Below are positions 10,359-53,108 of a stretch of DNA of 64,000 nt, one piece after another. The DNA comes from Sanderia malayensis (lineage: Eukaryota; Cnidaria; Scyphozoa; Semaeostomeae; Pelagiidae). The notes below the pieces were generated by a model, which was not told the DNA's origin, did not search any database, and saw only the letters and a program-made list of their open reading frames with translations. A program made the position numbers and the translations under genes. The stretch is taken from positions 930,001 to 994,000 of the forward strand of contig RQOL01000374.1 of assembly GCA_013076295.1 (NCBI GenBank), written 5' to 3'. Each line of letters opens with the position of its first letter. Position 1 is the stretch's first letter.

Positions 10359-11503
10359 AGCTGCAATATATTAAACCTTCCAGCTTGTTTTCCATATTAA
10401 TACACTTTTGGCAGGAAACCTGAACAGACTGTCTTGAAGAAACTAAAAAACTGTGTGTTCGCGGTTGTTAAATTCTAGGCCACGAAAAAGACCCAACAGA
10501 GACATTTCAACAGAAGGTACTGTTTGTATTTCTCAATCGAGTCTCAAATTTTATCTATTTTCTTTGGTAGCAAGAGAGAAGCAAGTTTTTAAACTTTTGG
10601 TTACTTTTAAGATTTTCGATTCCGTTGCAACATTTATGTGTGTCTGCTGTTTCAGTCTTATTCATGCGGTATGGTAATCTTACTGTCTGCGATTTTTTAA
10701 TTTTAGAGGATGCCAACACGACTCTATGTGCACCGGCGACACCCAGAGCAAGAAATTTGGCCACGCTCGAAGGTAAACACACGGTTTAAACTATTTGATG
10801 ATTGGGTGTCTACTGCATCTACCATGCCACTGTCTTGTATTTCCCGTGAAGGCGTTGTTAGTACAGTCAAATCTGCATGGTGCGAGCTCGTGTAGCTCAA
10901 ACTCTATCTAATTCCAACGAAATTCCCCGTCCGTTCAAAAATCACTGATGACAAATATTTTTTAAATATTTTCGACTGACTATGCATATATATTTTCTAA
11001 ATTAAAATTGTAATGACTTATCAATATCATGTTGCAGTGCTTCCCACCTCAGCGTTTGAAGTTATTCATGAAAGGTTATTATATGCTTTAGATTGCTATC
11101 CGCTGTTATTTATCGTTCCGCCATTCCATTATTCATCGTAATTGCTGAGGCTTGTTGCCTCGCTGGATGTCAGAGGAAGGTTTCCTTGCTGCGGATTAAT
11201 ATGAGATATCTTTTTTGGGGGATCTGAATGTTATAGTTTGGGTCGGTTATAAATTCGCGGTTGTTGAAATCTAGGCCACAAAAAAGACCCAACAGAGACA
11301 TTTCACCAGCAGATACTGTTTGTATTTCTCAATCGAGTCTCAAATTTTATCTATTTTCTTTGGTAGCAAGAGAGAAGCAGGTTTTTACACTTTTTGGTTC
11401 CTTTTAAGATTTTCGATTCCGTTGCAACATTTATGTGTGTCTGCTGTTTGAGTCTTATTCATGCGGTATGGTAATCTTACTGTCTGCGATTTTTTAATTT
11501 TAG

Positions 11504-11569
11504 AGGATGCCAACACGACTCTATGTGCACCGGCGACACCCAGAGCAAGAAATTTGGCCACGCTCGAAG
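11504..11569 (+). other. Block E3 of a representative array unit (exon-like, 66 nt)
   Basis: Preceded by a T-rich stretch ending 'tttaattttag' and followed by AAG|gtaaac, a good 3' and 5' splice-site pair. It is 66 nt in every copy I compared. In the frame starting at its first base it reads RMPTRLYVHRRHPEQE and then IWPRSK. In the alternative frame (offset +2) it reads DANTTLCAPATPRAR. Subfamily B changes include tatgtg to tatgag, which makes a TGA only in the offset frame. Confidence 0.55.
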
Positions 11570-11834
11570 GTAAACACACGGTTTAAACTATTTGATGATT
11601 GGGTGTCTACTGCATCTACCATGCCACTGTCTTGTATTTCCCGTGAAGGCGTTGTTAGTACAGTCAAATCTGCATGGTGCGAGCTCGTGTAGCTCAAACT
11701 CTATCTAATTCCAACGAAATTCCCCGTCCGTTCAAGAATCACTGATGACAAATATTTTTTAAATATTTTCGACTGACTATGCATATATATTTTCTAAATT
11801 AAAATTGTAATGACTTATCATTATCATGTTGCAG

Positions 11835-11871
11835 TGCTTCCCACCTCAGCGTTTGAAGTTATTCATGAAAG
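11835..11871 (+). other. Block E1 of a representative array unit (exon-like, 37 nt)
   Basis: Preceded by 'cattatcatgttgcag' and followed by GAAAG|gttatt, a plausible but weaker donor. It reads CFPPQRLKLFMK in the frame continuous with E3. It is 37 nt in the array, but 61 nt in the two older relatives at 1338-1398 and 21678-21738, a difference of 24 nt (eight codons). Confidence 0.5.
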
Positions 11872-12069
11872 GTTATTATATGCTTTAGATTGCTATCCCT
11901 GTTATTTATCGTTCCGCCATTCCATTATTCATCGTAATTGCTGAGGCTTGTTGCCTCGCTGGATGTCAGAGGAAGGTTTCCTTGCTGCGGATTAATATGA
12001 GATATCTTTTTGGGGGATCTGAATGTTATAGTTTGGGTCGGTTATAAATTCGCGGTTGTTGAATTCTAG

Positions 12070-12107
12070 GCCACGAAAAAGACCCAACAGAGACATTTCA
12101 ACAGAAG
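12070..12107 (+). other. Block E2 of a representative array unit (exon-like, 38 nt)
   Basis: Preceded by 'gttgttgaattctag' and followed by AAG|gtactg. It is 38 nt in subfamily A and 50 nt, with different sequence, in subfamily B, a difference of 12 nt (four codons). Joined to E1 it stays open in the E3 frame in both subfamilies (GHEKDPTETFQQK in A, GRHRAQVKLMTMPTPQQ in B). Confidence 0.5.
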
Positions 12108-15100
12108 GTACTGTTTGTATTTCTCAATCGAGTCTCAAATTTTATCTATTTTCTTTGGTAGCAAGAGAGAAGCAAGTTTTTAAACTTTTTGGTTACTTTT
12201 AAGATTTTCGATTCCGTTGCAACATTTATGTGTGTCTGCTGTTTCAGTCTTATTCATGCGGTATGGTAATCTTACTGTCTGCAATTTTTTAATTTTAGAG
12301 GATGCCAACACGACTCTATGTGCACCGGCGACACCCAGAGCAAGAAATTTGGCCACGCTCGAAGGTAAACACACGGTTTAAACTATTTGATGATTGGGTG
12401 TCTACTGCATCTACCATGCCACTGTCTTGTATTTCCCGTGAAGGCGTTGTTAGTACAGTCAAATCTGCATGGTGCGAGCTCGTGTAGCTCAAACTCTATC
12501 TAATTCCAACGAAATTCCCCGTCCGTTCAAGAATCACTGATGACAAATATTTTTTAAATATTTTCGACTGACTATGCATATATATTTTCTAAATTAAAAT
12601 TGTAATGACTTATCATTATCATGTTGCAGTGCTTCCCACCTCAGCGTTTGAAGTTATTCATGAAAGGTTATTATATGCTTTAGATTGCTATCCCCTGTTA
12701 TTTATCGTTCCGCCATTCCATTATTCATCGTAATTGCTGAGGCTTGTTGCCTCGCTGGATGTCAGAGGAAGGTTTCCTTGCTGCGGATTAATATGAGATA
12801 TCTTTTTGGGGGGATCTGAATGTTATAGTTTGGATCGGTTATGATTTTGCGGTTGTTGAATTCTAGGCCACGAAAATAACCCAACAGAGACATTTCAACA
12901 GAAGGTACTGTTTGTATTTCTCAATCGAGTCTCAAATTTTATCTATTTTCTTTGGTAGCAAGAGAGAAGCAAGTTTTTAAACTTTTTGGTTACTTTTAAG
13001 ATTTTCGATTCCATTGCAACATTTATGTGTGTCTGCTGTTTCAGTCTTATTCATGCGGTATGGTAATCTTACTGTCTGCGATTTTTTAATTTTAGAGGAT
13101 GCCAACACGACTCTATGTGCACCGGCGACACCCAGAGCAAGAAATTTGGCCACGCTCGAAGGTAAACACACGGTTTAAACTATTTGATGATTGGGTGTCT
13201 ACTGCATCTACCATGCCACTGTCTTGTATTTCCCGTGAAGGCGTTGTTAGTACAGTCAAATCTGCATGGTGCGAGCTCGTGTAGCTCAAACTCTATCTAA
13301 TTCCAACGAAATTCCCCGTCCGTTCAAGAATCACTGATGACAAATAATTTTTAAATATTTTCTACTGACTATGCATCTATATTTTCTAAATTAAAATTGT
13401 AATGACTTATCATTATCATGTTGCAGTGCTTCCCACCTCAGCGTTTGAAGTTATTCATGAAAGGTTATTATATGCTTTAGATTGCTATCCCCTGTTATTT
13501 ATCGTTCCGCCATTCCATTATTCATCGTAATTGCTGAGGCTTGTTGCCTCGCTGGATGTCAGAGGCAGGTTTCCTTGCTGCGGATTAATATGAGATATCT
13601 TTTTGGGGGATCTGAATGTTATAGTTTGGGTCGGTTATAAATTCGCGGTTGTTGAATTCTAGGCCACGAAAAAGACCCAACAGAGACATTTCAACAGAAG
13701 GTACTGTTTGTATTTCTCAATCGAGTCTCAAATTTTATCTATTTTCTTTGGTAGCAAGAGAGAAGCAAGTTTTTAAACTTTTTGGTTACTTTTAAGATTT
13801 TCGATTCCGTTGCAACATTTATGTGTGTCTGCTGTTTCAGTCTTATTCATGCGGTATGGTAATCTTACTGTCTGCGATTTTTTAATTTTAGAGGATGCCA
13901 ACACGACTCTATGTGCACCGGCGACACCCAGAGCAAGAAATTTGGCCACGCTCGAAGGTAAACACACGGTTTAAACTATTTGATGATTGGGTGTCTACTG
14001 CATCTACCATGCCACTGTCTTGTATTTCCCGTGAAGGCGTTGTTAGTACAGTCAAATCTGCATGGTGCGAGCTCGTGTAGCTCAAACTCTATCTAATTCC
14101 AACGAAATTCCCCGTCCGTTCAAGAATCACTGATGACAAATATTTTTTAAATATTTTCGACTGACTATGCATATATATTTTCTAAATTAAAATTGTAATG
14201 ACTTATCATTATCATGTTGCAGTGCTTCCCACCTCAGCGTTTGAAGTTATTCATGAAAGGTTATTATATGCTTTAGATTGCTATCCGCTGTTATTTATCG
14301 TTCCGCCATTCCATTATTCATCGTAATTGCTGAGGCTTGTTGCCTCGCTGGATGTCAGAGGAAGGTTTCCTTGCTGCGGATTAATATGAGATATCTTTTT
14401 TGGGGGATCTGAATGTTATAGATTGGGTCGGTTATAAATTAGCGGTTGTTGAATTCTAGGCCACGAAAAAGACCCAACAGAGACATTTCAACAGAAGGTA
14501 CTGTTTGTATTTCTCAATCGAGTCTCAAATTTTATCTATTTTCTTTGGTAGCAAGAGAGAAGCAAGTTTTTAAACTTTTTGGTTACTTTTAAGATTTTCG
14601 ATTCCGTTGCAACATTTATGTGTGTCTGCTGTTTCAGTCTTATTCATGCGGTATGGTAATCTTACTGTCTGCGATTTTTTAATTTTAGAGGATGCCAACA
14701 CGACTCTATGTGCACCGGCGACACCCAGAGCAAGAAATTTGGCCACGCTCGAAGGTAAACACACGGTTTAAACTATTTGATGATTGGGTGTCTACTGCAT
14801 CTACCATGCCACTGTCTTGTATTTCCCGTGAAGGCGTTGTTAGTACAGTCAAATCTGCATGGTGCGAGCTCGTGTAGCTCAAACTCTATCTAATTCCAAC
14901 GAAATTCCCCGTCCGTTCAAGAATCACTGATGACAAATATTTTTTAAATATTTTCGACTGACTATGCATATATATTTTCTAAATTAAAATTGTAATGACT
15001 TATCATTATCATGTTGCAGTGCTTCCCACCCCAGCATTTGAAGTTATTCATGAAAGGTTATTATATGCTTTAGATTGCTATCCCCTGTTATTTATCGTTC

Positions 15101-17558
15101 CGCCATTCCATTATTCATCGTAATTGCTGAGGCTTGTTGCCTCGCTGGATGTCAGAGGAAGGTTTCCTTGCTGCGGATTAATATGAGATATCTTTTTTGG
15201 GGGATCTGAATGTTATAGTTTGGGTCGGTTATAAATTCGCGGTTGTTGAATTCTAGGCCACGAAAAAGACCCAACAGAGACATTTCAACAGAAGGTACTG
15301 TTTGTATTTCTCAATCGAGTCTCAAATTTTATCTATTTTCTTTGGTAGCAAGAGAGAAGCAAGTTTTTAAACTTTTTGGTTACTTTTAAGATTTTCGATT
15401 CCGTTGCAACATTTATGTGTGTCTGCTGTTTGAGTCTTATTCATGCGGTATGGTAATCTTACTGTCTGCGATTTTTTAATTTTAGAGGATGCCAACACGA
15501 CTCTATGTGCACCGGCGACACCCAGAGCAAGAAATTTGGCCACGCTCGAAGGTAAACACCTGGTTTAAACTATTTGATGATTGGGTGTCTACTGCATCTA
15601 CCATGCCACTGTCTTGTATTTCCCGTGAAGGCGTTGTTAGTACAGTCAAATCTGCATGGTGCGAGCTCGTGTAGCTCAAACTCTATCTAATTCCAACGAA
15701 ATTCCCCGTCCGTTCAAGAATCACTGATGACAAATATTTTTTAAATATTTTCGACTGACTATGCATATATATTTTCTAAATTAAAATTGTAATGACTTAT
15801 CATTATCATGTTGCAGTGCTTCCCACCTCAGCGTTTGAAGTTATTCATGAAAGGTTATTATATGCTTTAGATTGCTATCCCCTGTTATTTATCGTTCCGC
15901 CATTCCATTATTCATCGTAATTGCTGAGGCTTGTTGCCTCGCTGGATGTCAGAGGAAGGTTTCCTTGCTGCGGATTAATATGAGATATCTTTTTTGGGGG
16001 ATCTGAATGTTATAGTTTGGGTCGGTTATAAATTCGCGGTTGTTGAAATCTAGGCCACAAAAAAGACCCAACAGAGACATTTCACCAGCAGATACTGTTT
16101 GTATTTCTCAATCGAGTCTCAAATTTTATCTATTTTCTTTGGTAGCAAGAGAGAAGCAGGTTTTTACACTTTTTGGTTCCTTTTAAGATTTTCGATTCCG
16201 TTGCAACATTTATGTGTGTCTGCTGTTTCAGTCTTATTCATGCGGTATGGTAATCTTACTGTCTGCGATTTTTTAATTTTAGAGGATGCCAACACGACTC
16301 TATGTGCACCGGCGACACCCAGAGCAAGAAATTTGGCCACGCTCGAAGGTAAACACACGGTTTAAACTATTTGATGATTGGGTGTCTACTGCATCTACCA
16401 TGCCACTGTCTTGTATTTCCCGTGAAGGCGTTGTTAGTACAGTCAAATCTGCATGGTGCGAGCTCGTGTAGCTCAAACTCTATCTAATTCCAACGAAATT
16501 CCCCGTCCGTTCAAGAATCACTGATGACAAATATTTTTTAAATATTTTCGACTGACTATGCATATATATTTTCTAAATTAAAATTGTAATGACTTATCAT
16601 TATCATGTTGCAGTGCTTCCCACCTCAGCGTTTGAAGTTATTCATGAAAGGTTATTATATGCTTTAGATTGCTATCCCCTGTTATTTATCGTTCCGCCAT
16701 TCCATTATTCATCGTAATTGCTGAGGCTTGTTGCCTCGCTGGATGTCAGAGGAAGGTTTCCTTGCTGCGGATTAATATGAGATATCTTTTTGGGGGATCT
16801 GAATGTTATAGTTTGGGTCGGTTATAAATTCGCGGTTGTTGAATTCTAGGCCACGAAAAAGACCCAACAGAGACATTTCAACAGAAGGTACTGTTTGTAT
16901 TTCTCAATCGAGTCTCAAATTTTATCTATTTTCTTTGGTAGCAAGAGAGAAGCAAGTTTTTAAACTTTTTGGTTACTTTTAAGATTTTCGATTCCGTTGC
17001 AACATTTATGTGTGTCTGCTGTTTGAGTCTTATTCATGCGGTATGGTAATCTTACTGTCTGCGATTTTTTAATTTTAGAGGATGCCAACACGACTCTATG
17101 TGCACCGGCGACACCCAGAGCAAGAAATTTGGCCACGCTCGAAGGTAAACACACGGTTTAAACTATTTGATGATTGGGTGTCTACTGCATCTACCATGCC
17201 ACTGTCTTGTATTTCCCGTGAAGGCGTTGTTAGTACAGTCAAATCTGCATGGTGCGAGCTCGTGTAGCTCAAACTCTATCTAATTCCAACGAAATTCCCC
17301 GTCCCTTCAAGAATCACTAATGACAAATGTTTTTTAAATATTTTCTACTAACTATGCATATAGGGCTGTTTCAGCTGACGTCACACGCGCTTGTCACGTG
17401 ACCCTTTGGTGGCACTGGTGGGCAAAAAGACAATATTCGCCATTGATGTTGTATGCAATCGCGAACAAAGTAGTCTTCTTTGTTGAGTTTTGTGTGCATT
17501 TATCAGAAGTAAAAGAGGGCTTAAGTGTTGTCTAACTTCTTTGTTTTCGTATTTAATC

Positions 17559-19137
17559 ATGGTTAATAGCTGTATTGTTACGGGCTGTGCGAATCGGCAA
17601 ATAAAAGGAGTTAACTTAAGCTTCTGCCGACTGCCGAAGGACGCTGAGAGAAGGAGACTTTGGTTAGCAGCAATTTGCAGAAAAAATTACAACCCGTCTT
17701 TAGAAAGTGACGTGAGAGTTTGTGGTGCTCATTTTATAAGTGGTAAGTATGAATTTATTGATATATATTTCATATTATTTCAGCTGTAGAAGCTTCTTTT
17801 GTGGCTAAGGCCGCCTAGGCCAATTTAGGCCAGTCATCTTTGACAGTACCTATTGATTTTATGTATTTTCTTAGGCGTTGCATCAACTGATAAACGAAGT
17901 CCAGATTACGTTCCTTTGTTAAATATGGGCTACGATAAAAAATACATAACCCTGCATCTTGTTCTGCAAGATACGAGCGAGGATTGAGAAGAGAAGTGTC
18001 CAAGATTATTGAGAATGGGAGGCAAAAATCTGAAGCAAATGAGGCAGATTCAGTTTCATTAAATTCTGATGAAACTTCCATACCCGAAACATCATTTCAA
18101 ATAATGGAAACTCAAATTGAGGATTTTGAAGATGAAAGTGTTCTTGAAGATACTACACACATTCACTGTTTAAATGATTTAGAGAGATTAGAGGAGAGGG
18201 TTGACACGCAAAGGAATGAAATTAATAATCTAAGAGTGGAGAAAAAGATGCTAGAAGATCAACTAAAAGCATCAAAGATGTGCTACGAGTTCCTTGATAC
18301 AAATGAAAAGGTTCTGTACTTCACTGGTATACCATCTCTGGCATGCTTCAATTGGTTGCATAAAGTAGTGTCTCCTGGGATCCCAAATTTTCTTTCTTTA
18401 TCATCTAAAAATGCTCTTTTGTTAACCTTCATGAAATTGCGGTTGAATCTTCTACAACAAGACCTTTCATATCGATTTCAAGTCAGCAAAGCTACAATAT
18501 CAAGAGTCATTAACTTTTGTTTGCCAATAATAGCGAAGAGTCTTTCTGGGTTGGTCCACTGGCCTGACAAAGGGGATGTGCTGCGTACATTGCCCAAAGT
18601 GTTTAAGAAGACATTTCCACGCTGCAAAGTTATTATTGATTGCACAGAAATTTATATTGATCGCCCAGGCAATCTGGAGGCACGACAACTCACTTGGTCC
18701 AATTACAAACACAATAACACGTTGAAAGTTTTAATTGGAATATCACCAACTGGTGCCATTGTGTTTCTCTCTAAAGCTTTTGGAGGAAGGGTGTCAGACA
18801 AGGTAATAACACAGAGAAGTGGCTTCTTGGACCTCTTGGAGTTTGGTGACCAGGTTATGGCAGATAGAGGCTTCCTTGTGGCAGATGATGTTGCAAGTCA
18901 TAATGCAACACTGGTAATACCATCATTTACGAAAGGAAAAAGTCAGCTTAGCCAAAAGATGTTGAAACCAGCAGACAAATAGCAAGAGTTCGAATCCATG
19001 TGGAGAGAGCAATTGGTCGTATCAAGAATTTCCGTATTCTTAGCACTGAGATGCAATTAAGAATGGTGCCGAACTTTGACAACATCATGACAATTTGCTC
19101 TGCAATAACCAATCTACATCCAAGGCTTGTAAAATAG
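17559..19137 (+). pseudogene. THAP-domain DDE transposase of the ISL2EU-like element
   Basis: Exon 1 (17559-17742) encodes a THAP zinc-binding domain: C-x4-C in CIVTGCANR, FCRLPKD, a tryptophan in RRLWLAA, and the final C-x2-H in VCGAHF. It ends with the donor gtaagt. Exon 2 starts at 17875 after 'ttttcttag'. An acidic linker and a coiled-coil-like stretch (LERLEERVDTQRNEINNL) precede a helix-turn-helix-like region (YRFQVSKATISRVINF) and the DDE_Tnp_4 core. The core has Asp in VIIDCTEIY, Asp in VMADRGF and, after a frame change, Glu in HVERAIGRIKNF. Two single-base frameshifts, near 17940 (A6 run) and 18957 (A4 run), break it, so it is inactive as read. The stop is at 19135-19137. In its order of parts the protein looks otherwise complete for the family. 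Confidence 0.85.
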
Positions 19138-19193
19138 TGACATCCATTTGGAAATTTAATTTAATTTACACCAGTTGCTACAATAGTCCTTCA

Positions 19194-19560
19194 ATCAAAG
19201 ACACTGGCTTGGTATTGAAGTTCTGAAATGATTGCTTGGTGAATGAAGCCACTTCTCTGTAAAATCCTTAATCAAAGACACTGGCTTGGTATTGAAGTTC
19301 TGAAATGATTGCTTAGTGAATGAGAACACTTCTCTTTAAAATCCTCAATCAAAGACACTGGCTTGGTATTGAAGTTCTGAAATGATTGCTTAGTGAATGA
19401 GAACACTTCTCTTTAAAATCCTCAATCAAAGACACTGGCTTGGTATTGAAGTTCTGGAATGATTGCTTAGTGAATGAGAACACTTCTCTTTAAAATCCTC
19501 AATCAAAGACACTGGCTTGGTATTGAAGTTCTGAAATGATTGCTGAACAAATAAGAAAGA
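19194..19560 (+). repeat. 77-bp minisatellite, about five copies
   Basis: 'atcaaagacactggcttgg' recurs at 19194, 19271, 19348, 19425 and 19502, exactly 77 bp apart, with few differences; the last copy is partial. It lies between the 3' ends of the two convergent transposon genes. Confidence 0.95.
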
Positions 19561-19621
19561 CTGTCCCTTCAATTCTCAGCTGAATTGAGATTATAGGAAT
19601 GAATGGTGAACCAGTGAACCA

Positions 19622-21552
19622 TTATTTTGTACAATCAGGACAAAACCACTTTTTCCTTGGCTTCCTGAGAATACCAACACATTTGTAATGAAATCGATTT
19701 ATTTTACAGTTGTCTCCTGAACATATTATCATGCGACCATGAGCTTTTTTCTGGCATGTACAACATTTGTCAATGGCATTTGAAGCAGTGTCTTCTTCCT
19801 CAGAGATGATCTTCCTGGTGACAATTTCTGGCAGTATATGGGCAAAGAAAAAAGATGCTGATGATGTTACCAATTTGGTGCTGAAAGCTTCGTTAAACAG
19901 TATACGTTGTCTGTGCTTGTTTACATCTGTGCAAATAACAAAGTCACAGTACTTCACTTGCAAAACAAACATTTGAAGCTGGACTTGTGAGTAATATTTG
20001 TGATTTTTTTTAGTGTTAGGGATTTATCAAGACAAAAATCATTATCTTCCATAGCTGCTTGAAGCACTGACTTTGTCTTGTTTTTAAATGACCACTTTAT
20101 TTCCAGGACTCCTGCACCACAACAGGAACAGAAAACATTGCCGTCAGGACTGGCACCAAGGAATGGCTTTGCTTTGTAAACATTGAATCCACTTTCTCTA
20201 CAACTGAAGTTTGGATGAAGTGTTCTCATTTCACTAGCATACCAGTCTCTTGCAGAAGATTCGTTATCCATGCCATACTTGACAGAAGGAACCTTGGATA
20301 AGTCACAGTTACTGTAACCCATGATACGGGACACAAGCTTGGTAGGATTAGTTGAAGGTAACATATGCACAACATCATGCACTTTGGAAGCTGTAATTCT
20401 TCCTTCTCTGTGCCTATACCACAAGTTACTAATAGACTGTGACCTTGTCTGTTTTTCTAGATTTGCAATCTGGTCTTGGGTGACATGGTATTTTATCCAC
20501 AATGATGGTATATATGAAGAAAGACTGTTTCCTCTCAAGTTTGAAAATGGCTCCTCATACAGTGTGCATAGCAGTCTTGGAAAAACATCATCATTTTCAT
20601 CCTCGGAGGCACTGTCTGTCTCTTCTTCATCAAGCTTCGGGATTATTGTAAAAAGACAGGCATTAGGACATATTTCTTTTAACTCATGCAGCAAGTCAAC
20701 AGAGGGAAGAGGGTCTGATCCAGTTGGGTTCCAGTTTTGAGGGATTGCTGAGCGTGTGCCTTTAAATAATCCAGCTTTTTCTTGGATGGTACATGGCTCT
20801 ATCTCTCTGAAGGCTTGATTCCACTTGCAGGCCTGACTTGTTGAAGATGTTGTCGATAAACCAATTCTCACTGCAATTTCAACCTTAAAGAGCAGAGCTG
20901 CAACATGACTACAAGTTTCACCAAGTCCTGCCATACATGTACAGTGTGCACAATATATCGAACCAGTGCTTTTTTCAATGCACACCCAAGGCTGATGCAA
21001 ATCTCCAGAAGCTTTCTGTGATGGCCTGACTTTTGCTTTTAAAAAGCAATATGGATTTTTGCTGTCAATGGAGTGCATGTAAACAGTCTGTACATGTCCA
21101 CTGGTGACATATCTATGCGAAAAGAAGGAATGTTTAGCTTCAAAAAGGGTTCCATAATTCAAAAGAGAGCTGGCCTACTACATGGGCCTAGCATATCATG
21201 CCTAGCCAGGTTTTATAAAGTTTAAATTCGATAATATTATATCCATATCATTATTATATTCTTATAAATTAGAAAATTGCATTTACCTGTATGCCTCCAG
21301 TGATTTATAGGCCTTTAATTCTTCCTTCGTATAGGTACCAGGCGTGTTGATGAGATACAAATATATATCTCCAAATGTTATGTCAGGTCAGCCACGCGGG
21401 CTGTCTGACCAATCAGCTGACAAAAAATATGGATCTGGCAACAGCATAGTGCCTTTAGAGAACTTTAATTTCTCTAAATACCTGCGTTTTGCAACAAGAT
21501 CTGGACTTTTGTAGTAAGCAGACATATCTTTCACTGTAGTTTCAGTCGCCAT
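19622..21552 (-). pseudogene. SWIM - YqaJ nuclease - PHD protein of the ISL2EU-like element
   Basis: Exon 1 (21552-21287) starts MATETTVKDMSAYYKSPDLV and ends cag|gtaaat; exon 2 starts at 21112 after 'cgcatag'. A SWIM zinc-binding motif (CTCMAGLGETCSH: C-x-C, C-x-H) is followed by an acidic linker. The YqaJ-type exonuclease domain comes next, with REGRITASKV, VKYGMDNESSARDWY, GASPDG and LEIKW (catalytic D and E-x-K visible). The C-terminus has a PHD-like C4HC3 pattern (CCTCQKKAHG, then FHYKCVG, then WFCPDC). Damage: TGA at the position after SPRG in exon 1, where relatives I recall have Trp or Leu, and a frameshift at an A8 run near 20012, upstream of the PHD part. YqaJ proteins are lambda-type exonucleases; here the role is probably end processing in transposition or replication. 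Confidence 0.85.
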
Positions 21553-21677
21553 GTCTGCTCTTTTTGCCCACCAGTGAAATACGCATGCGCGAAAAAGAGG
21601 CTTTGTTATTGTTTACTGAAACAGCCCTTATTTTTTTCAAATTAAAATTGTAATGACTTATCATTGTCATCTTGCAG

Positions 21678-21738
21678 TACTTCAAGCTTTAGCTGAGGCC
21701 TACGACTCTTCCGAGGAAGGGTTCATTGTCCACAGAAG
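21678..21738 (+). other. Long (61-nt) form of block E1 next to the transposon
   Basis: The first unit after the inserted transposon has E1 as TACTTCAAGCTTTAGC onwards instead of the array's TGCTTCCCACC form. In the offset frame it reads LQALAEAYDSSEEGFIVHR, matching the long E1 in the Harbinger insert at 1338-1398 (LQDLADAYSSSEDEYIIHR). In the E3-continuous frame it has a TAG. It looks like an older, more protein-like version. Confidence 0.7.
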
Positions 21739-27700: not shown

Positions 27701-28557
27701 TTTCAGTCTTATTCATGCGGTATGGTAATCTTACTGTCTGCGATTTTTTAATTTTAGAGGATGCCAACACGACTCTATGTGCACCGGCGACACCCAGAGC
27801 AAGAAATTTGGCCACGCTCGAAGGTAAAAACACGGTTTAAACTATTTGATGATTGGGTGTCTACTGCATCTACCATGCCACTGTCTTGTATTTCCCGTGA
27901 AGGCGTTGTTAGTACAGTCAAATCTGCATGGTGCGAGCTCGTGTAGCTCAAACTCTATCTAATTCCAACGAAATTCCCCGTCCGTTCAAGAATCACTGAT
28001 GACAAATATTTTTTAAATATTTTCGACTGACTATGCATATATATTTTCTAAATTAAAATTGTAATGACTTATCATTATCATGTTGCAGTGCTTCCCACCT
28101 CAGCGTTTGAAGTTATTCATGAAAGGTTATTATATGCTTTAGATTGCTATCCCCTGTTATTTATCGTTCCGCCATTCCATTATTCATCGTAATTGCTGAG
28201 GCTTGTTGCCTCGCTGGATGTCAGAGGAAGGTTTCCTTGCTGCGGATTAATATGAGATATCTTTTTGGGGGGATCTGAATGTTATAGTTTGGGTCGGTTA
28301 TAAATTCGCGGTTGTTGAATTCTAGGCCACGAAAAAGACCCAACAGAGACATTTCAACAGAAGGTACTGTTTGTATTTCTCAATCGAGTCTCAAATTTTA
28401 TCTATTTTCTTTGGTAGCAAGAGAGAAGCAAGTTTTTAAACTTTTTGGTTACTTTTAAGATTTTCGATTCCGTTGCAACATTTATGTGTGTCTGCTGTTT
28501 CAGTCTTATTCATGCGGTATGGTAATCTTACTGTCTGCGATTTTTTAATTTTAGAGG

Positions 28558-29073
28558 ATGCCAACACGACTCTATGTGCACCGGCGACACCCAGAGCAAG
28601 AAATTTGGCCACGCTCGAAGGTAAAAACACGGTTTAAACTATTTGATGATTGGGTGTCTACTGCATCTACCATGCCACTGTCTTGTATTTCCCGTGAAGG
28701 CGTTGTTAGTACAGTCAAATCTGCATGGTGCGAGCTCCAGAGGAAGGTTTCCTTGCTGCGGATTAATATGAGATATCTTTTTGGGGGGATCTGAATGTTA
28801 TAGTTTGGGTCGGTTATAAATTCGCGGTTGTTGAATTCTAGGCCACGAAAAAGACCCAACAGAGACATTTCAACAGAAGGTACTGTTTGTATTTCTCAAT
28901 CGAGTCTCAAATTTTATCTATTTTCTTTGGTAGCAAGAGAGAAGCAAGTTTTTAAACTTTTTGGTTACTTTTAAGATTTTCGATTCCGTTGCAACATTTA
29001 TGTGTGTCTGCTGTTTCAGTCTTATTCATGCGGTATGGTAATCTTACTGTCTGCGATTTTTTAATTTTAGAGG
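28558..29073 (+). repeat. Deleted 516-bp array unit
   Basis: The unit whose E3 starts at 28558 is followed by the next E3 after 516 bp instead of 797. The join reads gcgagct|ccagaggaagg near 28738, removing the segment that contains E1 and both its borders (about 281 bp). E3 and the following E2 remain. Confidence 0.9.
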
Positions 29074-32000
29074 ATGCCAACACGACTCTATGTGCACCGG
29101 CGACACCCAGAGCAAGAAATTTGGCCACGCTCGAAGGTAAACACACGGTTTAAGCTACTTGATGATTGGGTGTCTACTGCATCTACCATGCCACTGTCTT
29201 GTATTTCCCGTGAAGGCGTTGTTACTACAGTCAAATCTGCATGGTGCGAGCTCGTGTAGCTCAAACTCTATCTAATTCCAACGAAATTCCCCGTCCCTTC
29301 AAGAATCACTGATGACAAATATTTTTTAAATATTTTCTACTGCCTATGCATATATATTTTCTAAATTAAAATTGTAATGACTTATCATTATCATGTTGCA
29401 GTGCTTCCCACCTCAGCGTTTGAAGTTATTCATGAAAGGTTATTATATGCTTTAGATTGCTATCCCCTGTTATTTATCGTTCCGCCATTCCATTATTCAT
29501 CGTAATTGCTGAGGCTTGTTGCCTCGCTGGATGTCAGAGGAAGGTTTCCTTGCTGCGGATTAATATGAGATATCTTCTTTGGGGGATCTGAATGTTATAG
29601 TTTGGGTCGGTTATGATTTTACGGTTGTTGAATTCTAGGCCGACACAGAGCACAAGTGAAACTAATGACTATGCCAACCCCACAGCAGGTACTGTTTGTA
29701 TTTCTCAATCGAGTCTCAAATTTTATCTATTTTCTTTGGTAGCAAGAGAGAAGCAGGTTTTTACACTTTTTGGTTCCTTTTAAGATTTTCGATTCCGTTG
29801 CAACATTTATGTGTGTCTGCTGTTTCAGTCTTATTCATGCGGTATGGTAATTTTACTGTGTGCGATTTTTTAGTTTTAGAGGATGCCAACACCACTCTAT
29901 GAGCACCGGCGAGACCCAGAGCAAGAAATTTGGCTGCGCTCGAAGGTAAACACACGGTTTAAGCTACTTGATGATTGGGTGTCTACTGCATCTACCATGC
30001 CACTGTCTTGTATTTCCCGTGAAGGCGTTGTTAGTACAGTCAAATCTGCATGGTGCGAGCTCGTGTAGCTCAAACTCTATCTAATTCCAACGAAATTCCC
30101 CGTCCGTTCAAGAATCACTGATGACAAATATTTTTTAAATATTTTCTACTGACTATGCATATATATTTTCTAAATTAAAATTGTAATGACTTATCATTAT
30201 CATGTTGCAGTGCTTCCCACCTCAGCGTTTGAAGTTATTCATGAAAGGTTATTATATGCTTTAGATTGCTATCCGCTGTTATTTATCGTTCCGCCATTCC
30301 ATTATTCATCGTAATTGCTGAGGCTTGTTGCCTCGCTGGATGTCAGAGGAAGGTTTCCTTGCTGCGGATTAATATGAGATATCTTTTTTGGGGGATCTGA
30401 ATGTTATAGTTTGGGTCGGTTATAAATTCGCGGTTGTTGAATTCTAGGCCACGAAAAAGACCCAACAGAGACATTTCAACAGAAGGTACTGTTTGTATTT
30501 CTCAATCGAGTCTCAAATTTTATCTATTTTCTTTGGTAGCAAGAGAGAAGCAAGTTTTTAAACTTTTTGGTTACTTTTAAGATTTTCGATTCCGTTGCAA
30601 CATTTATGTGTGTCTGCTGTTTCAGTCTTATTCATGCGGTATGGTAATCTTACTGTCTGCGATTTTTTAATTTTAGAGGATGCCAACACGACTCTATGTG
30701 CACCGGCGACACCCAGAGCAAGAAATTTGGCCACGCTCGAAGGTAAACACACGGTTTAAACTATTTGATGATTGGGTGTCTACTGCATCTACCATGCCAC
30801 TGTCTTGTATTTCCCGTGAAGGCGTTGTTAGTACAGTCAAATCTGCATGGTGCGAGCTCGTGTAGCTCAAACTCTATCTAATTCCAACGAAATTCCCCGT
30901 CCGTTCAAGAATCACTGATGACAAATACTTTTTAAATATTTTCGACTGACTATGCATATATATTTTCTAAATTAAAATTGTAATGACTTATCATTATCAT
31001 GTTGCAGTGCTTCCCACCTCAGCGTTTGAAGTTATTCATGAAAGGTTATTATATGCTTTAGATTGCTATCCCCTGTTATTTATCGTTCCGCCATTCCATT
31101 ATTCATCGTAATTGCTGAGGCTTGTTGCCTCGCTGGATGTCAGAGGAAGGTTTCCTTGCTGCGGATTAATATGAGATATCTTTTTTGGGGGATCTGAATG
31201 TTATAGTTTGGGTCGGTTATAAATTCGCGGTTGTTGAAATCTAGGCCACAAAAAAGACCCAACAGAGACATTTCACCAGCAGGTACTGTTTGTATTTCTC
31301 AATCGAGTCTCAAATTTTATCTATTTTCTTTGGTAGCAAGAGAGAAGCAGGTTTTTACACTTTTTGGTTCCTTTTAAGATTTTCGATTCCGTTGCAACAT
31401 TTATGTGTGTCTGCTGTTTCAGTCTTATTCATGCGGTATGGTAATTTTACTGTCTGCGATTTTTTAGTTTTAGAGGATGCCAACACCACTCTATGAGCAC
31501 CGGCGAGACCCAGAGCAAGAAATTTGGCTGCGCTCGAAGGTAAACACACGGTTTAAGCTACTTGATGATTGGGTGTCTACTGCATCTACCATGCCACTGT
31601 CTTGTATTTCCCGTGAAGGCGTTGTTACTACAGTCAAATCTGCATGGTGCGAGCTCGTGTAGCTCAAACTCTATCTAATTCCAACGAAATTCCCCGTCCC
31701 TTCAAGAATCACTGATGACAAATATTTTTTAAATATTTTCTACTGCCTATGCATATATATTTTCTAAATTAAAATTGTAATGACTTATCATTATCATGTT
31801 GCAGTGCTTCCCACCTCAGCGCTTGAAGTTATTCATGAAAGGTTATTATATGCTTTAGATTGCTATCCCCTGTTATTTATCGTTCCGCCATTCCATTATT
31901 CATCGTAATTGCTGAGGCTTGTTGCCTCGCTGGATGTCAGAGGAAGGTTTCCTTGCTGCGGATTAATATGAGATATCTTCTTTGGGGGATCTGAATGTTA

Positions 32001-35000
32001 TAGTTTGGGTCGGTTATGATTTTGCGGTTGTTGAATTCTAGGCCGACACAGAGCACAAGTGAAACTAATGACTATGCCAACCCCACAGCAGGTACTGTTT
32101 GTATTTCTCAATCGAGTCTCAAATTTTATCTATTTTCTTTGGTAGCAAGAGAGAAGCAGGTTTTTACACTTTTTGGTTCCTTTTAAGATTTTCGATTCCG
32201 TTGCAACATTTATGTGTGTCTGCTGTTTCAGTCTTATTCATGCGGTATGGTAATTTTACTGTGTGCGATTTTTTAGTTTTAGAGGATGCCAACACCACTC
32301 TATGAGCACCGGCGAGACCAAGAGCAAGAAATTTGGCTGCGCTCGAAGGTAAACACACGGTTTAAGCTACTTGATGATTGGGTGTCTACTGCATCTACCA
32401 TGCCATTGTCTTGTATTTCCCGTGAAGGCGTTGTTAGTACAGTCAAATCTGCATGGTGCGAGCTCGTGTAGCTCAAACTCGATCTAATTCCAACGAAATT
32501 CCCCGTCCCTTCAAGAATCACTGATGACAAATATTTTTTAAATATTTTCTACTGCCTATGCATATATATTTTCTAAATTAAAATTGTAATGACTTATCAT
32601 TATCATGTTGCAGTGCTTCCCACCTCAGCGTTTGAAGTTATTCATGAAAGGTTATTATATGCTTTAGATTGCTATCCCCTGTTATTTATCGTTCCGCCAT
32701 TCCATTATTCATCGTAATTGCTGAGGCTTGTTGCCTCGCTGGATGTCAGAGGAAGGTTTCCTTGCTGCGGATTAATATGAGATATCTTTTTTGGGGGATC
32801 TGAATGTTATAGTTTGGGTCGGTTATGATTTTGCAGTTGTTGAATTCTAGGCCGACACAGAGCACAAGTGAAACTAATGACTATGCCAACCCCACAGCAG
32901 GTACTGTTTGTATTTCTCAATCGAGTCTCAAATTTTATCTATTTTCTTTGGTAGCAAGAGAGAAGCAGGTTTTTACACTTTTTGGTTCCTTTTAAGATTT
33001 TCGATTCCGTTGCAACATTTATGTGTGTCTGCTGTTTCAGTCTTATTCATGCGGTATGGTAATTTTACTGTCTGCGATTTTTTAGTTTTAGAGGATGCCA
33101 ACACCACTCTATGAGCACCGGCGAGACCCAGAGCAAGAAATTTGGCTGCGCTCGAAGGTAAACACACGGTTTAAGCTACTTGATAATTGGGTGTCTACTG
33201 CATCTACCATGCCACTGTCTTGTATTTCCCGTGAAGGCGTTGTTACTACAGTCAAATCTGCATGGTGCGAGCTCGTGTAGCTCAAACTCCATCTAATTCC
33301 AACGAAATTCCCCGTCCCTTCAAGAATCACTGATGACAAATATTTTTTAAATATTTTCTACTGCCTATGCATATATATTTTCTAAATTAAAATTGTAATG
33401 ACTTATCATTATCATGTTGCAGTGCTTCCCACCTCAGCGTTTGAAGTTATTCATGAAAGGTTATTATATGCTTTAGATTGCTATCTCCTGTTATTTATCG
33501 TTCCGCCATTCCATTATTCATCGTAATTGCTGAGGCTTGTTGCCTCGCTGGATGTCAGAGGAACGTTTCCTTGCTGCGGATTAATATGAGATATCTTCTT
33601 TGGGGGATCTGAATGTTATAGTTTGGGTCGGTTATGATTTTGCGGTTGTTGAATTCTAGGCCGACACAGAGCACAAGTGAAACTAATGACTATGCCAACC
33701 CCACAGCAGGTACTGTTTGTATTTCTCAATCGAGTCTCAAATTTTATCTATTTTCTTTGGTAGCAAGAGAGAAGCAGGTTTTTACACTTTTTGGTTCCTT
33801 TTAAGATTTTCGACTCCGTTGCAACATTTATGTGTGTCTGCTGTTTCAGTCTTATTCATGCGGTATGGTAATTTTACTGTCTGCGATTTTTTAGTTTTAG
33901 AGGATGCCAACACCACTCTATGTGCACCGGCGAGACCCAGAGCAAGAAATTTGGCTGCGCTCGAAGGTAAACACACGGTTTAAGCTACTTGATGATTGGG
34001 TGTCTACTGCATCTACCATGCCACTGTCTTGTATTTCCCGTGAAGGCGTTGTTAGTACAGTCAAATCTGCATGGTGCAAGCTCGTGTAGCTCAAACTCTA
34101 TCTAATTCCAACGAAATTCCCGGTCTCTTCTAGAATCACTGATGACAAATATTTTTTAAATATTTTCTACTGACTATGCATATATATTTTCTAAATTAAA
34201 ATTGTAATGACTTATCATTATCATGTTGCAGTGCTTCCCACCTCAGCGTTTGAAGATATTCATGAAAGGTTATTATATGCTTTAGATTGCTATCCTCTGT
34301 TATTTATCGTTCCGCCATTCCATTATTCATCGCAATTGCTGAGGCTTGTTGCCTCGTTGGATGTCAGAGGAAGGTTTCCTTGCTGCGGATTAATATGAGA
34401 TATCTTTTTTGGGGGATCTGAATGTTATAGTTTGGGTCGGTTATGATTTTGCGGTTGTTGAATTCTAGGCCGACACAGAGCACAAGTGAAACTAATGACT
34501 ATGCCAACCCCATAGCAGGTACTGTTTGTATTTCTCAATCGAGTCTCAAATTTTATCTATTTTCTTTGGTAGCAAGAGAGAAGCAGGTTTTTACACTTTT
34601 TGGTTCCTTTTAAGATTTTCGATTCCGTTGCAACATTTATGTGTGTCTGCTGTTTCAGTCTTATTCATGCGGTATGGTAATTTTACTGTCTGCGATTTTT
34701 TAGTTTTAGAGGATGCCAACACCACTCTATGAGCACCGGCGAGACCCAGAGCAAGAAATTTGGCTGCGCTCGAAGGTAAACACACGGTTTAAGCTACTTG
34801 ATGATTGGGTGTCTACTGCATCTACCATGCCACTGTCTTGTATTTCCCGTGAAGGCGTTGTTACTACAGTCAAATCTGCATGGTGCGAGCTCGTGTAGCT
34901 CAAACTCTATCTAATTCCAACGAAATTCCCCGTCCCTTCAAGAATCACTGATGACAAATATTTTTTAAATATTTTCTACTGACTATGCATATATATTTTC

Positions 35001-38000
35001 TAAATTAAAATTGTAATGACTTATCATTATCATGTTGCAGTGCTTCCCACCTCGGCGTTTGAAGATATTCATGAAAGGTTATTATATGCTTTAGATTGCT
35101 ATCCTCTGTTATTTATCGTTCCGCCATTCCATTATTCATTGCAATTGCTGAGGCTTGTTGCCTCGTTGGATGTCAGAGGAAGGTTTCCTTGCTGCGGATT
35201 AATATGAGATATCTTTTTTGGGGGATCTGAATGTTATAGTTTGGGTCGGTTATGATTTTGCGGTTGTTGAATTCTAGGCCGACACAGAGCACAAGTGAAA
35301 CTAATGACTATGCCAACCCCATAGCAGGTACTGTTTGTATTTCTCAATCGAGTCTCAAATTTTATCTATTTTCTTTGGTAGCAAGAGAGAAGCAGGTTTT
35401 TACACTTTTTGGTTCCTTTTAAGATTTTCGATTCCGTTGCAACATTTATGTGTGTCTGCTGTTTCAGTCTTATTCATGCGGTATGGTAATTTTACTGTCT
35501 GCGATTTTTTAGTTTTAGAGGATGCCAACACCACTCTATGAGCACCGGCGAGACCCAGAGCAAGAAATTTGGCTGCGCTCGAAGGTAAACACACGGTTTA
35601 AGCTACTTGATGATTGGGTGTCTACTGCATCTACCATGCCACTGTCTTGTATTTCCCGTGAAGGCGTTGTTACTACAGTCAAATCTGCATGGTGCGAGCT
35701 CGTGTAGCTCAAACTCTATCTAATTCCAACGAAATTCCCCGTCCGTTCAAGAATCACTGATGACAAATATTTTTTAAATATTTTCGACTGACTATGCATA
35801 TATATTTTCTAAATTAAAATTGTAATGACTTATCATTATCATGTTGCAGTGCTTCCCACCTCAGCGTTTGAAGTTATTCATGAAAGGTTATTATATGCTT
35901 TAGATTGCTATCCCCTGTTATTTATCGTTCCGCCATTCCATTATTCATCGTAATTGCTGAGGCTTGTTGCCTCGCTGGATGTCAGAGGAAGGTTTCCTTG
36001 CTGCGGATTAATATGAGATATCTTCTTTGGGGGATCTGAATGTTATAGTTTGGGTCGGTTATGATTTTGCGGTTGTTGAATTCTAGGCCGACACAGAGCA
36101 CAAGTGAAACTAATGACTATGCCAACCCCACAGCAGGTACTGTTTGTATTTCTCAATCGAGTCTCAAATTTTATCTATTTTCTTTGGTAGCAAGTGAGAA
36201 GCAGGTTTTTACACTTTTTGGTTCCTTTTAAGATTTTCGATTCCGCTGCAACATTTATGTGTGTCTGCTGTTTCAGTCTTATTCATGCGGTATGGTAATT
36301 TTACTGTCTGCGATTTTTTAGTTTTAGAGGATGCCAACACCACTCTATGTGCACCGGCGAGACCCAGAGCAAGAAATTTGGCTGCGCTCGAAGGTAAACA
36401 CACGGTTTAAGCTACTTGATGATTGGGTGTCTACTGCATCTACCATGCCACTGTCTTGTATTTCCCGTGAAGGCGTTGTTAGTACAGTCAAATCTGCATG
36501 GTGCGAGCTCGTGTAGCTCAAACTCTATCTAATTCCAACGAAATTCCCAGTCTCTTCTAGAATCACTGATGACAAATATTTTTTAAATATTTTCTACTGA
36601 CTATGCATATATATTTTCTAAATTAAAATTGTAATGACTTATCATTATCATGTTGCAGTGCTTCCCACCTCAGCGTATGAAGATATTCATGAAAGGTTAT
36701 TATATGCTTTAGATTGCTATCCTCTGTTATTTATCGTTCCGCCATTCCATTATTCATCGCAATTGCTGAGGCTTGTTGCCTCGTTGGATGTCAGTGGAAG
36801 GTTTCCTTGCTGCGGATTAATATGAGATATCTTTTTTGGGGGATCTGAATGTTATAGTTTGGATCGGTTATGATTTTGCGGTTGTTGAATTCTAGGCCAA
36901 CACAGAGCACAAGTGAAACTAATGACTATGCCAACCCCACAGCAGGTACTGTTTGTATTTCTCAATCGAGTCTCAAATTTTATCTATTTTCTTTGGTAGC
37001 AAGAGAGAAGCAAATTTTTAAACTTTTTGGTTCCTTTTAAGATTTTCGATTCCGTTGCAACATTTATGTGTGTCTGCTGTTTCAGTCTTATTCATGCGGT
37101 ATGGTAATTTTACTGTCTGCGATTTTTTAGTTTTAGAGGATGCCAACACCACTCTATGTGCACCGGCGAGACCCAGAGCAAGAAATTTGGCTGCGCTCGA
37201 AGGTAAACACACGGTTTAAGCTACTTGATGATTGGGTGTCTACTGCATCTACCATGCCACTGTCTTGTATTTCCCGTGAAGGCGTTGTTAGTACAGTCAA
37301 ATCTGCATGGTGCGAGCTCGTGTAGCTCAAACTCTATCTAATTCCAACGAAATTCCCGGTCTCTTCTAGAATCACTGATGACAAATATTTTTTAAATATT
37401 TTCTACTGACTATGCATATATATTTTCTAAATTAAAATTGTAATGACTTATCATTATCATGTTGCAGTGCTTCCCACCTCAGCGTTTGAAGATATTCATG
37501 AAAGGTTATTATATGCTTTAGATTGCTATCCTCTGTTATTTATCGTTCCGCCATTCCATTATTCATCGCAATTGCTGAGGCTTGTTGCCTCGTTGGATGT
37601 CAGAGGAAGGTTTCCTTGCTGCGGATTAATATGAGATATCTTTTTTGGGGGATCTGAATGTTATAGTTTGGATCGGTTATGATTTTGCGGTTGTTGAATT
37701 CTAGGCCAACACAGAGCACAAGTGAAACTAATGACTATGCCAACCCCACAGCAGGTACTGTTTGTATTTCTCAATCGAGTCTCAAATTTTATCTATTTTC
37801 TTTGGTAGCAAGAGAGAAGCAAGTTTTTAAACTTTTTGGTTCCTTTTAACATTTTCGATTCCGTTGCAACATTTATGTGTGTCTGCTGTTTCAGTCTTAT
37901 TCATGCGGTATGGCAATCTTACTGTCTGCGATTTTTTAGTTTTAGAGGATGCCAACACCACTCTATGTGCACCGGCGACACCCAGAGCAAGAAATTTGGC

Positions 38001-39228
38001 CACGCTCGAAGGTAAACACACGGTTTAAACTATTTGATGATTGTGTGTCTACTGCATCTACCATGCCACTGTCTTGTATTTCCCGTGAAGGCGTTGTTAG
38101 TACAGTCAAATCTGCATGGTGCGAGCTCGTGTAGCTCAAACTCTATCTAATTCCAACGAAATTCCCCGTCCCTTCAAGAATCACTGATGACAAATATTTT
38201 TTAAATATTTTCTACTGACTATGCATATATATTTTCTAAATTAAAATTGTAATGACTTATCATTATCATGTTGCAGTGCTTCCCACCTCAGCGTTTGAAG
38301 TTATTCATGAAAGGTTATTATATGCTTTAGATTGCTATCCCCTGTTATTTATCGTTCCGTCATTCCATTATTCATCGTAATTGCTGAGGCTTGTTGCCTC
38401 GCTGGATGTCAGAGGAAGGTTTCCTTGCTGCGGATTAATATGAGATATCTTTTTTGGGGGATCTGAATGTTATAGTTTGGATCGGTTATGATTTTGCGGT
38501 TGTTGAATTCTAGGCCGACACAGAGCACAAGTGAAACTAATGACTATGCCAACCCCACAGCAGGTACTGTTTGTATTTCTCAATCGAGTCTCAAATTTTA
38601 TCTATTTTCTTTGGTAGCAAGAGAGAAGCAAGTTTTTAAACTTTTTGGTTCCTTTTAACATTTTCGATTCCGTTGCAACATTTATGTGTGTCTGCTGTTT
38701 CAGTCTTATTCATGCGGTATGGCAATCTTACTGTCTGCGATTTTTTAGTTTTAGAGGATGCCAACACCACTCTATGTGCACCGGCGACACCCAGAGCAAG
38801 AAATTTGGCCACGCTCGAAGGTAAACACACGGTTTAAACTATTTGATGATTGGGTGTCTACTGCATCTACCATGCCACTGTCTTGTATTACCCGTGAAGG
38901 CGTTGTTAGTACGGTCAAATCTGCATGGTGCGAGCTCGTGTAGCTCAAACTCTATCTAATTCCAACGAAATTCCCCATCCCTTCAAGAATCACTGATGAC
39001 AAATATTTTTTAAATATTTTCTACTGACTATGCATATATATTTTCTAAATTAAAATTGTAATGACTTATCATTATCATGTTGCAGTGCTTCCCACCTCAG
39101 CGTTTGAAGTTATTCATGAAAGGTTATTATATGCTTTAGATTGCTATCCCCTGTTATTTATCGTTCCGCCATTCCATTATTCATCGTAATTGCTGAGGCT
39201 TGTTGCCTCGCTGGATGTCAGAGGAAGG

Positions 39229-41902: not shown

Positions 41903-42252
41903 TATACCCTACAATACATACCCTACAATACATATCCTACATAACATACCCTACAATACAAACCCTACAATACATACCCTACTATATATACCCTACAATA
42001 CATTCCCTACAATACATACCCTACAATACATACCCTACAATACAAACCCTACAACACATACCCTACAATACATACCCTACAATACAAACCCTACAATACA
42101 TACCCTACAATACATACCCTACAATACATACCCTACAATACAAACCCTACAATACATACCCTACTATATATACCCTACAATACATACCCTACAATACATA
42201 CCCTACAATACATACCCTACAACACATACCCTACAATACATACCCTACAATA
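41903..42252 (+). repeat. 14-bp minisatellite, left part (about 25 copies)
   Basis: Near-perfect repetition of CATACCCTACAATA, with variants ending ctatata, aacaca or caaaca. The long open frame (41754-42257) that reads as repeated PTIHTLQYIPYNTY is a by-product of the 14-bp period, since all three frames are open. Confidence 0.97.
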
Positions 42253-44693: not shown

Positions 44694-44748
44694 TTACCAC
44701 TCAGTCCGAAAAGAATGAGTTCTGTGACGTCAATATGCATATCATCTA

Positions 44749-44972
44749 TACATACCCTACAATACAAACCCTACAATACATACCCTACAATACATACCCT
44801 ATTATATATACCCTACAATACATACCCTACAATACATACCCTACAATACATACCCTACAATACATACCCTAGATAACATACCCTACAATACACACCCTAC
44901 AATACATATCCTACATAACATACCCTACAATACATACCCTACTATGCATACCCTACAATACATACCCTACAA
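44749..44972 (+). repeat. 14-bp minisatellite, right part (about 16 copies)
   Basis: The same CATACCCTACAATA unit as at 41903-42252, in the same orientation, resumes directly after the transposon's TA flank. The two parts were evidently one array of roughly 40 copies before the insertion. Periodicity is disturbed near 44870 and 44910. Confidence 0.95.
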
Positions 44973-53093: not shown

Positions 53094-53108
53094 GCAAGAT
53101 TATGACAG

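Follow-up and report, generated by a model that had tools for sequence, protein, structure and literature searches.

What does a long tandem array of exon-like blocks in a jellyfish genome represent: a gene, the remains of one or a satellite that merely resembles one? We addressed this question for a window of 64,000 nucleotides (nt) from Sanderia malayensis (assembly GCA_013076295.1, contig RQOL01000374.1, forward strand; C303:930001-994000 in our numbering, from a genome of 184 Mb in 918 contigs), which contains dozens of copies of three short blocks termed E2, E3 and E1. A preliminary description had offered two readings, a gene whose exons are repeated on a massive scale or an amplified fossil of one. 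Our analysis favors the fossil and traces its source to CENP-C, the inner-kinetochore protein that links chromosomes to the cell-division machinery, while present coding by the array is unsupported. Probably, the array arose by runaway tandem amplification of a three-exon linker cassette from a CENP-C (Mif2) paralogue and is now a gene-derived satellite or fossil.

A tandem array of three exon-like blocks

Block mapping placed the array of the CENP-C-derived cassette at window positions 10458-39231 of the plus strand (the strand of all window features below unless stated otherwise), with blocks spanning 10458-39147, the last unit extending to 39231 and the cassette order E2-E3-E1. In total there are 92 blocks (31 E2, 31 E3 and 30 E1), corresponding to ~31 cassette copies. 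E3 is 66 nt in all 31 cases and E1 is 37 nt in 29 of 30, the other being a 61-nt variant (E1-61; 21678-21738). E2 comes in two lengths, 38 nt (type A, 20 of 31) and 50 nt (type B, 11 of 31), which are very different in sequence yet flanked by nearly identical introns. All 11 type-B E2 blocks (RPTQSTSETNDYANPTA) lie within 25923-38563, with A-type E2 intermixed at the 5' end of this stretch. The usual spacers of 265, ~200 and 191 nt, and the length differences of 24 nt in E1 and 12 nt in E2, agree with the preliminary description; the most frequent unit periods are 797 and 809 nt. An AG before and a GT after the block, reported earlier as general, were present for 89 of 92 blocks but not for three E2 blocks with an AT donor (11275, 16054 and 21939). 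One representative cassette has a type-A E2 at 12070-12107 (38 nt; basic peptide RPRKRPNRDISTE in the CENP-C frame defined below), an E3 at 12299-12364 (66 nt; EDANTTLCAPATPRARNLATLE), intron I3 at 12365-12629, leading from E3 to the following E1, and an E1 at 12630-12666 (37 nt; VLPTSAFEVIHE).

The CENP-C gene and descent of the cassette

The blocks have counterparts in a gene on contig C571 (minus strand, 3175935-3183171), for which we built a spliced model of 18 GT-AG exons and 974 codons without a stop, one acceptor having been repositioned to keep the reading frame. The protein matches the Pfam family CENP-C_C (PF11699) at residues 889-971 with 66.8 bits (cut-off 29) and solved CENP-C chains in the PDB (E = 1.6e-15); residues 20-72 of the C-terminal query, exon M8 included, match 7on1 chain C. 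When CENP-C_C was searched against the six-frame genome translation, C571 was the sole locus returned, as a single exon scoring 25.3 bits, below the cut-off of 29. Upstream of the cupin, exon M8 is CENP-C-motif-like (RRGNRTRVPPIKYW / RRGNRTRVPPIKYWNLNEYIEY), recognized by what we take to be the shape of that motif. A EukProt protein (P0001, 908 aa) is identical to the C571 protein over its N-terminal ~300 residues, so we took it as a model of the same gene from the same species; the other two proteins returned were CENP-C of the corals Pocillopora (39% identity) and Stylophora (38%). By these homologies, the C571 locus is the CENP-C (Mif2) gene and the source type of the cassette exons. It also carries an internal tandem duplication of E3 (E3a and E3b), with exons 15% and introns 21% diverged.

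When compared with this gene, the array can be followed exon by exon and intron by intron. In the C571 gene, E1 has 52 nt and runs from phase 1 to phase 2; it aligns with the array E1 and its introns. The other array blocks and their introns align with E3a, which is phase 1 to 1, and with the terminal part of E2b, whose donor is gtactg; the array E2 combines the acceptor of E2a with the donor of E2b. The p-distance (proportion of differing sites, ungapped) between C571 and the array is 8.2% for intron I1, 13.3% for I2 and 13.3% for the 5' portion of I3. The remaining, 3' portion of that intron is matched instead by the C571 intron before E1, at 14.3%, and gapped sites number 26, 4, 10 and 25 for these four segments, respectively. 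The representative I3 corresponds to the CENP-C intron after E3a over its first ~180 nt and to the intron before E1 over its last ~85 nt. From this alignment, two CENP-C introns contributed to I3, a hybrid formed when E1-E3 was duplicated, and because both parent introns are phase 1, the founding tandem duplication of linker exons was in frame. Taken together, the intron sequence, exon boundaries and splice phases that it has in common with CENP-C identify the cassette as part of the variable linker of CENP-C and not as a separate gene. The three-block array described earlier is thus real, its block boundaries coinciding with exon boundaries and splice phases of the CENP-C gene elsewhere in the genome.

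The cassette is not confined to the window. We found at least ten scattered loci (L and C numbers denote cassette loci and contigs, respectively); because array copies saturated the genome searches with array and intron queries, in which 39 or 40 of 60-1027 candidates were scored, dispersed copies are undercounted. Contig C800 carries several CENP-C pieces in an E2-E3-E1-E2 arrangement, with exon M8 occurring twice (38 aa each, 63 and 66% identical to C571), and looks like an intermediate step between the CENP-C gene and the array. An additional DNA copy of the M8 region is present on C464. Differences between the C571 and C800 copies of M8 fall 7, 7 and 19 by codon position, an excess at third positions.

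Reading frame of the cassette

In the array, the cassette stays in frame from unit to unit, as had been proposed, but the frame that was preferred is not the coding one. That frame was said to be open in every copy; it has stops in 3 of 92 blocks (E1-61 at 21678 and the E2 blocks at 34469 and 35278). The second frame was correctly noted to have stops in at least nine copies (9 of 92 blocks), and the third has stops in 41 of 92. Eight of the nine stop-bearing blocks in the second frame share the same TGA in E3, over 25355-35584, within and just 5' of the type-B stretch.

Copies outside the window discriminate better between frames. We compiled 33 exon entries from the family, of which 31 are distinct (the E1 of L013 and L014 are identical, as are the E3 of L012 and of array type A) and from which partial copies were omitted. 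The second frame was open in 31 entries, compared to 25 and 13 for the other two; the contrast of 2 versus 8 stop-bearing entries is not significant on its own (p = 0.08), and that of 2 versus 20 is (p = 3e-6). The frame preferred earlier is interrupted in E1-61, in the E1 of L013/L014 and in the E2 of L009 and L011. We rejected it on account of these stops in family exons and of the CENP-C gene itself, which uses the other frame; by the same comparison, the coding frame is the second one (hereafter the CENP-C frame). Exon lengths preserve phase in 31 of 33 entries, the exceptions being E1 of L015 and E2 of L016. The nearest relative of E1-61 (VLQALAEAYDSSEEGFIVHR) among the E1 exons compared is that of L013 on contig C675 (VLQDLAEAYSSSEEEFILHR), from which it differs at 2, 3 and 11 sites by codon position in the CENP-C frame, a significant third-position excess (p = 0.004).

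In this frame, the long E1 exons encode acidic peptides (LQDLAEAYSSSEEEF; L009, L013/L014, L018, which is the C571 gene, and E1-61), in contrast to the 37-nt E1. The E2 of array type A, L009-L011 and L013-L015 is basic (RPRKRKHNFPKTPN), whereas that of array type B, L012, L017 and C800 is not, and E3 peptides are threonine-rich.

Is the array a working gene?

The strongest competitor is that the array is still a working gene or part of one, with repeated CENP-C linker modules and defective exons perhaps skipped. Consistent with this, 89 of 92 blocks keep their splice sites and 83 of 92 have no stop in the CENP-C frame. E3 and the E1 + E2 pair are each symmetric (phase 1 to 1), so the frame would survive exon skipping. 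However, stops occur in 9 of 92 blocks, one TGA having spread through eight copies of E3, three E2 donors are lost, and array exons are no less variable than array introns. Leaving out the unit next to the interruption (with E1-61), the 19 A units have 14 of 141 variable columns in exons versus 87 of 656 in introns (p = 0.33), and the 11 B units have 10 of 153 versus 44 of 656 (p = 1.0). Neither exon constraint nor a frame open through the whole array, as expected of a functional repeated-exon gene, was therefore found.

The rest of a CENP-C gene was also not detected in the vicinity. Searching the window with the 974-aa protein by tblastn (E ≤ 1), on which this result rests and which misses the diverged array blocks too, returned no other CENP-C exon, and thus no N-terminal exons, CENP-C motif or cupin near the array. 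Likewise, array peptides in both frames matched no predicted protein at E up to 1 in a set of 5.8 billion proteins, where candidates had lengths of ~0.55-1.75 times the 290- and 882-aa queries and the second search scored the 7995 that shared most words. Based on these observations, we consider a working gene unlikely; by its sequence, the array looks dead, a decaying fossil.

The number of units differs between two near-identical contigs. Contig C475 carries 5' flanks 99.7-100% identical to those of the window and the same insertion that interrupts the array at ~17363-21652 (99.6%), with five E2 blocks before the insertion compared to nine in the window. C475 is probably the other haplotype, although it may be a recent duplication, and array copy number would accordingly be polymorphic if the first is true.

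Several observations count against the fossil interpretation and should be weighed with it. P0001, the only public protein found for the C571 gene, skips E1, E3a and E3b, which were placed in our model by phase, splice sites and conservation among paralogues. The third-position excess seen between E1-61 and L013 is absent in other pairs (4, 11 and 5 by codon position for the E3 of L010 and L011; 4, 5 and 7 for E3a and E3b). Diversity within the array is low, which limits the power of the constraint test, and the intact splice sites and largely open frame would permit a transcript from part of the array. Finally, that C800 and the other scattered pieces were once working genes is something we infer.

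With these points considered, the history that we favor for the fossil array would run as follows. In a CENP-C gene, unequal crossing-over would have joined the intron that follows E3 to the one that precedes E1 and so duplicated E1-E2-E3 in frame. One copy of the duplicated region would then have been separated from the rest of the gene and multiplied by further unequal exchange, which may still alter copy number. Since then, the array would have evolved without detectable coding constraint, as a gene-derived satellite, and the exon variants in it and in the scattered copies would record linker diversification from a time when the copies belonged to working CENP-C genes. As a detached CENP-C linker cassette, the array is thus ordinary in its mechanism, unequal exchange, and unusual in its gene, its scale and the ages of its exons and introns.

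Exons are more diverged than introns

Exon and intron divergence was compared for 36 pairs among nine copies, 30 of which share both exon and intron segments; these pairs are not independent. Exon p-distance exceeded intron p-distance in 30 of 30 pairs, by 1.5 to 6.4 fold (2.1-6.4 fold in 28 of 30), with Fisher p-values above 0.05 in four pairs (0.69, 0.40, 0.074 and 0.053), three of which involve L012. Gapped sites were also mostly exonic: between array A and L009, there are 53 exon gap sites versus 0 in 656 intron columns. For ungapped exon pairs, the proportions of nonsynonymous (pN) and synonymous (pS) differences were 0.162 and 0.277; for all aligned codons, which include some doubtful E2 alignments, they were 0.272 and 0.365. 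The contrast was sharpest at third positions. Between E1-61 and L013, 11 of 20 differ versus 12 of 199 sites in the adjacent intron (p = 1e-7), and in M8, C571 and C800 differ at 19 of 36 versus 43 of 258 sites in flanking introns (p = 6e-6). For the E2 of L009 and L011, the difference was not significant (3 of 21 versus 23 of 455, p = 0.10).

No single process that we considered accounts well for this pattern. Selection on amino acids alone is doubtful, because synonymous sites should then match introns, but they lie far above intron divergence. Hypermutation directed at exons is unsupported by the ratio of transitions to transversions (29:30 in exons and 30:27 in introns, pooling four exon and five intron comparisons). 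Generally constrained introns are unlikely given E3a/E3b, around which introns are more diverged than exons. Gene conversion combined with selection against exon conversion would also fit poorly, as intron divergence does not rise steadily toward the exons: donor-side bins are 3.6-6.5%, and acceptor-side bins are 0, 1.8, 8.4, 5.6 and 6.1% with growing distance, the higher bin lying at 16-30 nt.

Introns homogenized by gene conversion while exons stay different are familiar from primate opsins and the major histocompatibility complex (MHC). The likeness is that exons are older than introns; the differences are that here divergence changes abruptly at the exon edge, with no clear gradient, and that the copies lie on different contigs. 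Intron homogenization would therefore fit the opsin and MHC cases but not the sharp exon edge. Either the introns may have been homogenized recently with the exons spared, or the exons may have been exchanged as units. The puzzle is a concrete one, as ordinary positive selection is not expected to increase divergence at synonymous sites, nor gene conversion to end where exons meet introns.

A more elaborate reading is that the cassette family is a CENP-C diversification system, in which near-identical introns serve as recombination handles between tandem and scattered copies. Old, divergent linker exons would then enter working genes by in-frame shuffling while introns turn over quickly, and the array would act as a reservoir. 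The step at the exon edge, which extends to synonymous sites, would come from exchange of exons alone (by way of spliced RNA or cDNA, for instance) or from exon-directed mutation. We regard this as distinctly improbable.

Non-coding alternatives and the surroundings of the array

An array could also be active without coding, as a source of small RNAs or as a segregation-distorter or suppressor locus. In Drosophila, Su(Ste) repeats silence Stellate, and those repeats likewise form a tandem array that stems from a cellular gene and contains its introns, although the gene is a different one. The present array resembles it in outline, being gene-derived with introns, variable in copy number and flanked by transposon-like open reading frames (ORFs) and a satellite. 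Its exons, however, are much diverged from those of the C571 CENP-C gene, so that silencing of that gene through long perfect matches is unlikely, and we judge such a role very improbable. That the array is a satellite with no coding past, its exon-like blocks being products of chance and homogenization, which the preliminary description had left standing, is scarcely credible: two frames are largely open in the array, so openness alone proves little, but blocks, phases and introns correspond to CENP-C (refuting this explanation unless the C571 model is wrong throughout), phase-preserving lengths and an open frame recur at scattered loci, and E1-61 and L013 show the third-position excess.

The array starts and stops within intron I1, and a stray cassette piece, in which the final portion of E2 is followed by some of intron I2, lies ~9 kb upstream (1433-1576). 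From ~17363 to ~21652, the array is interrupted by transposon-like sequence with THAP and DDE_Tnp_4 ORFs, a YqaJ ORF on the minus strand and 77-bp repeats. Its 3' end abuts a 448-bp satellite (39230-41571, 5.2 copies). This satellite adjoins cassette copies at four places (the window, L010, L011 and L028), and also forms local arrays on several contigs, recurring in the first megabase of C303. A position of the copies at chromosome ends is unsupported: no tandem TTAGGG was found on either strand in nine contig-end stretches examined, so contig ends are uninformative about telomeres. Part of I3 (~12450-12540) has many 82-89% matches to that part alone on other contigs, and the genome searches covering it had ~1000 first-look candidates; it seems to contain a short dispersed repeat.

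Other features of the window include alkaline-exonuclease-like and Ulp1 (Peptidase_C48) ORFs at 8881-10358, probably a transposon, which end ~100 bp short of the array; 14-bp units rich in ATACCCTACA that form two arrays (41904-42252 and 44748-44978, with ~2.5 kb between them); retroelement-like ORFs at 53106-56148, with weak matches to reverse transcriptase and RNase H under curated cut-offs; and a minisatellite at 61027-61856 with units of about 74/144 bp. Known RNA genes were absent from the window (zero Rfam matches at the gathering threshold and zero tRNAs). At L009, an exon-like ORF (LQKEVLPENKSKLRFLNNGRLVLPKEDDDDD...) is present in two copies immediately downstream of a cassette E1 (contig C726, minus strand, 3949-4980).

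Precedents and implications

Although CENP-C is essential, its middle region is described as fast-evolving (PMC549713). According to the same study, an acidic and basic pair of middle-region exons in grass Cenpc has been repeatedly duplicated and lost under positive selection (Talbert and colleagues 2004, PMC549713). This recurrent exon-pair duplication is the closest precedent for the array: both involve tandem duplication of middle exons, and here the long E1 is acidic (SSEEEF) and some E2 are basic (RPRKRK). The differences are considerable, however. The grasses have two or three copies, seen in complementary DNAs, whereas the jellyfish cassette has three exons, ~31 copies detached from the gene and further copies scattered elsewhere, and the acidic run has been lost from the array's 37-nt E1 while the E2 of array B, L012, L017 and C800 is not basic.

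In Caenorhabditis, passages of another study report short-lived partial duplicates of CENP-C (hcp-4) outside the parental gene, seven in 32 species (PMC9577544). They include an hcp-4/CenH3 fusion in C. afra with two copies of hcp-4 exons 1-2, and one duplicate is an expressed fusion (PMC9577544). Partial duplication of CENP-C is thus common to both systems, although those passages of PMC9577544 mention no long tandem array. No CENP-C exon array is named in the listed titles and abstract openings of open-licence literature on CENP-C exon duplication, on CENP-C in sponges and on paralogues with centromere drive.

Duplication in frame of a comparable linker module in an animal and in grasses suggests that this module is a recurrent target. 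Together with at least ten scattered loci, the array would document numerous linker variants within a single genome, the introns serving as a clock, and the array and its scattered relatives illustrate the speed with which duplication and reshaping can act on this part of CENP-C.

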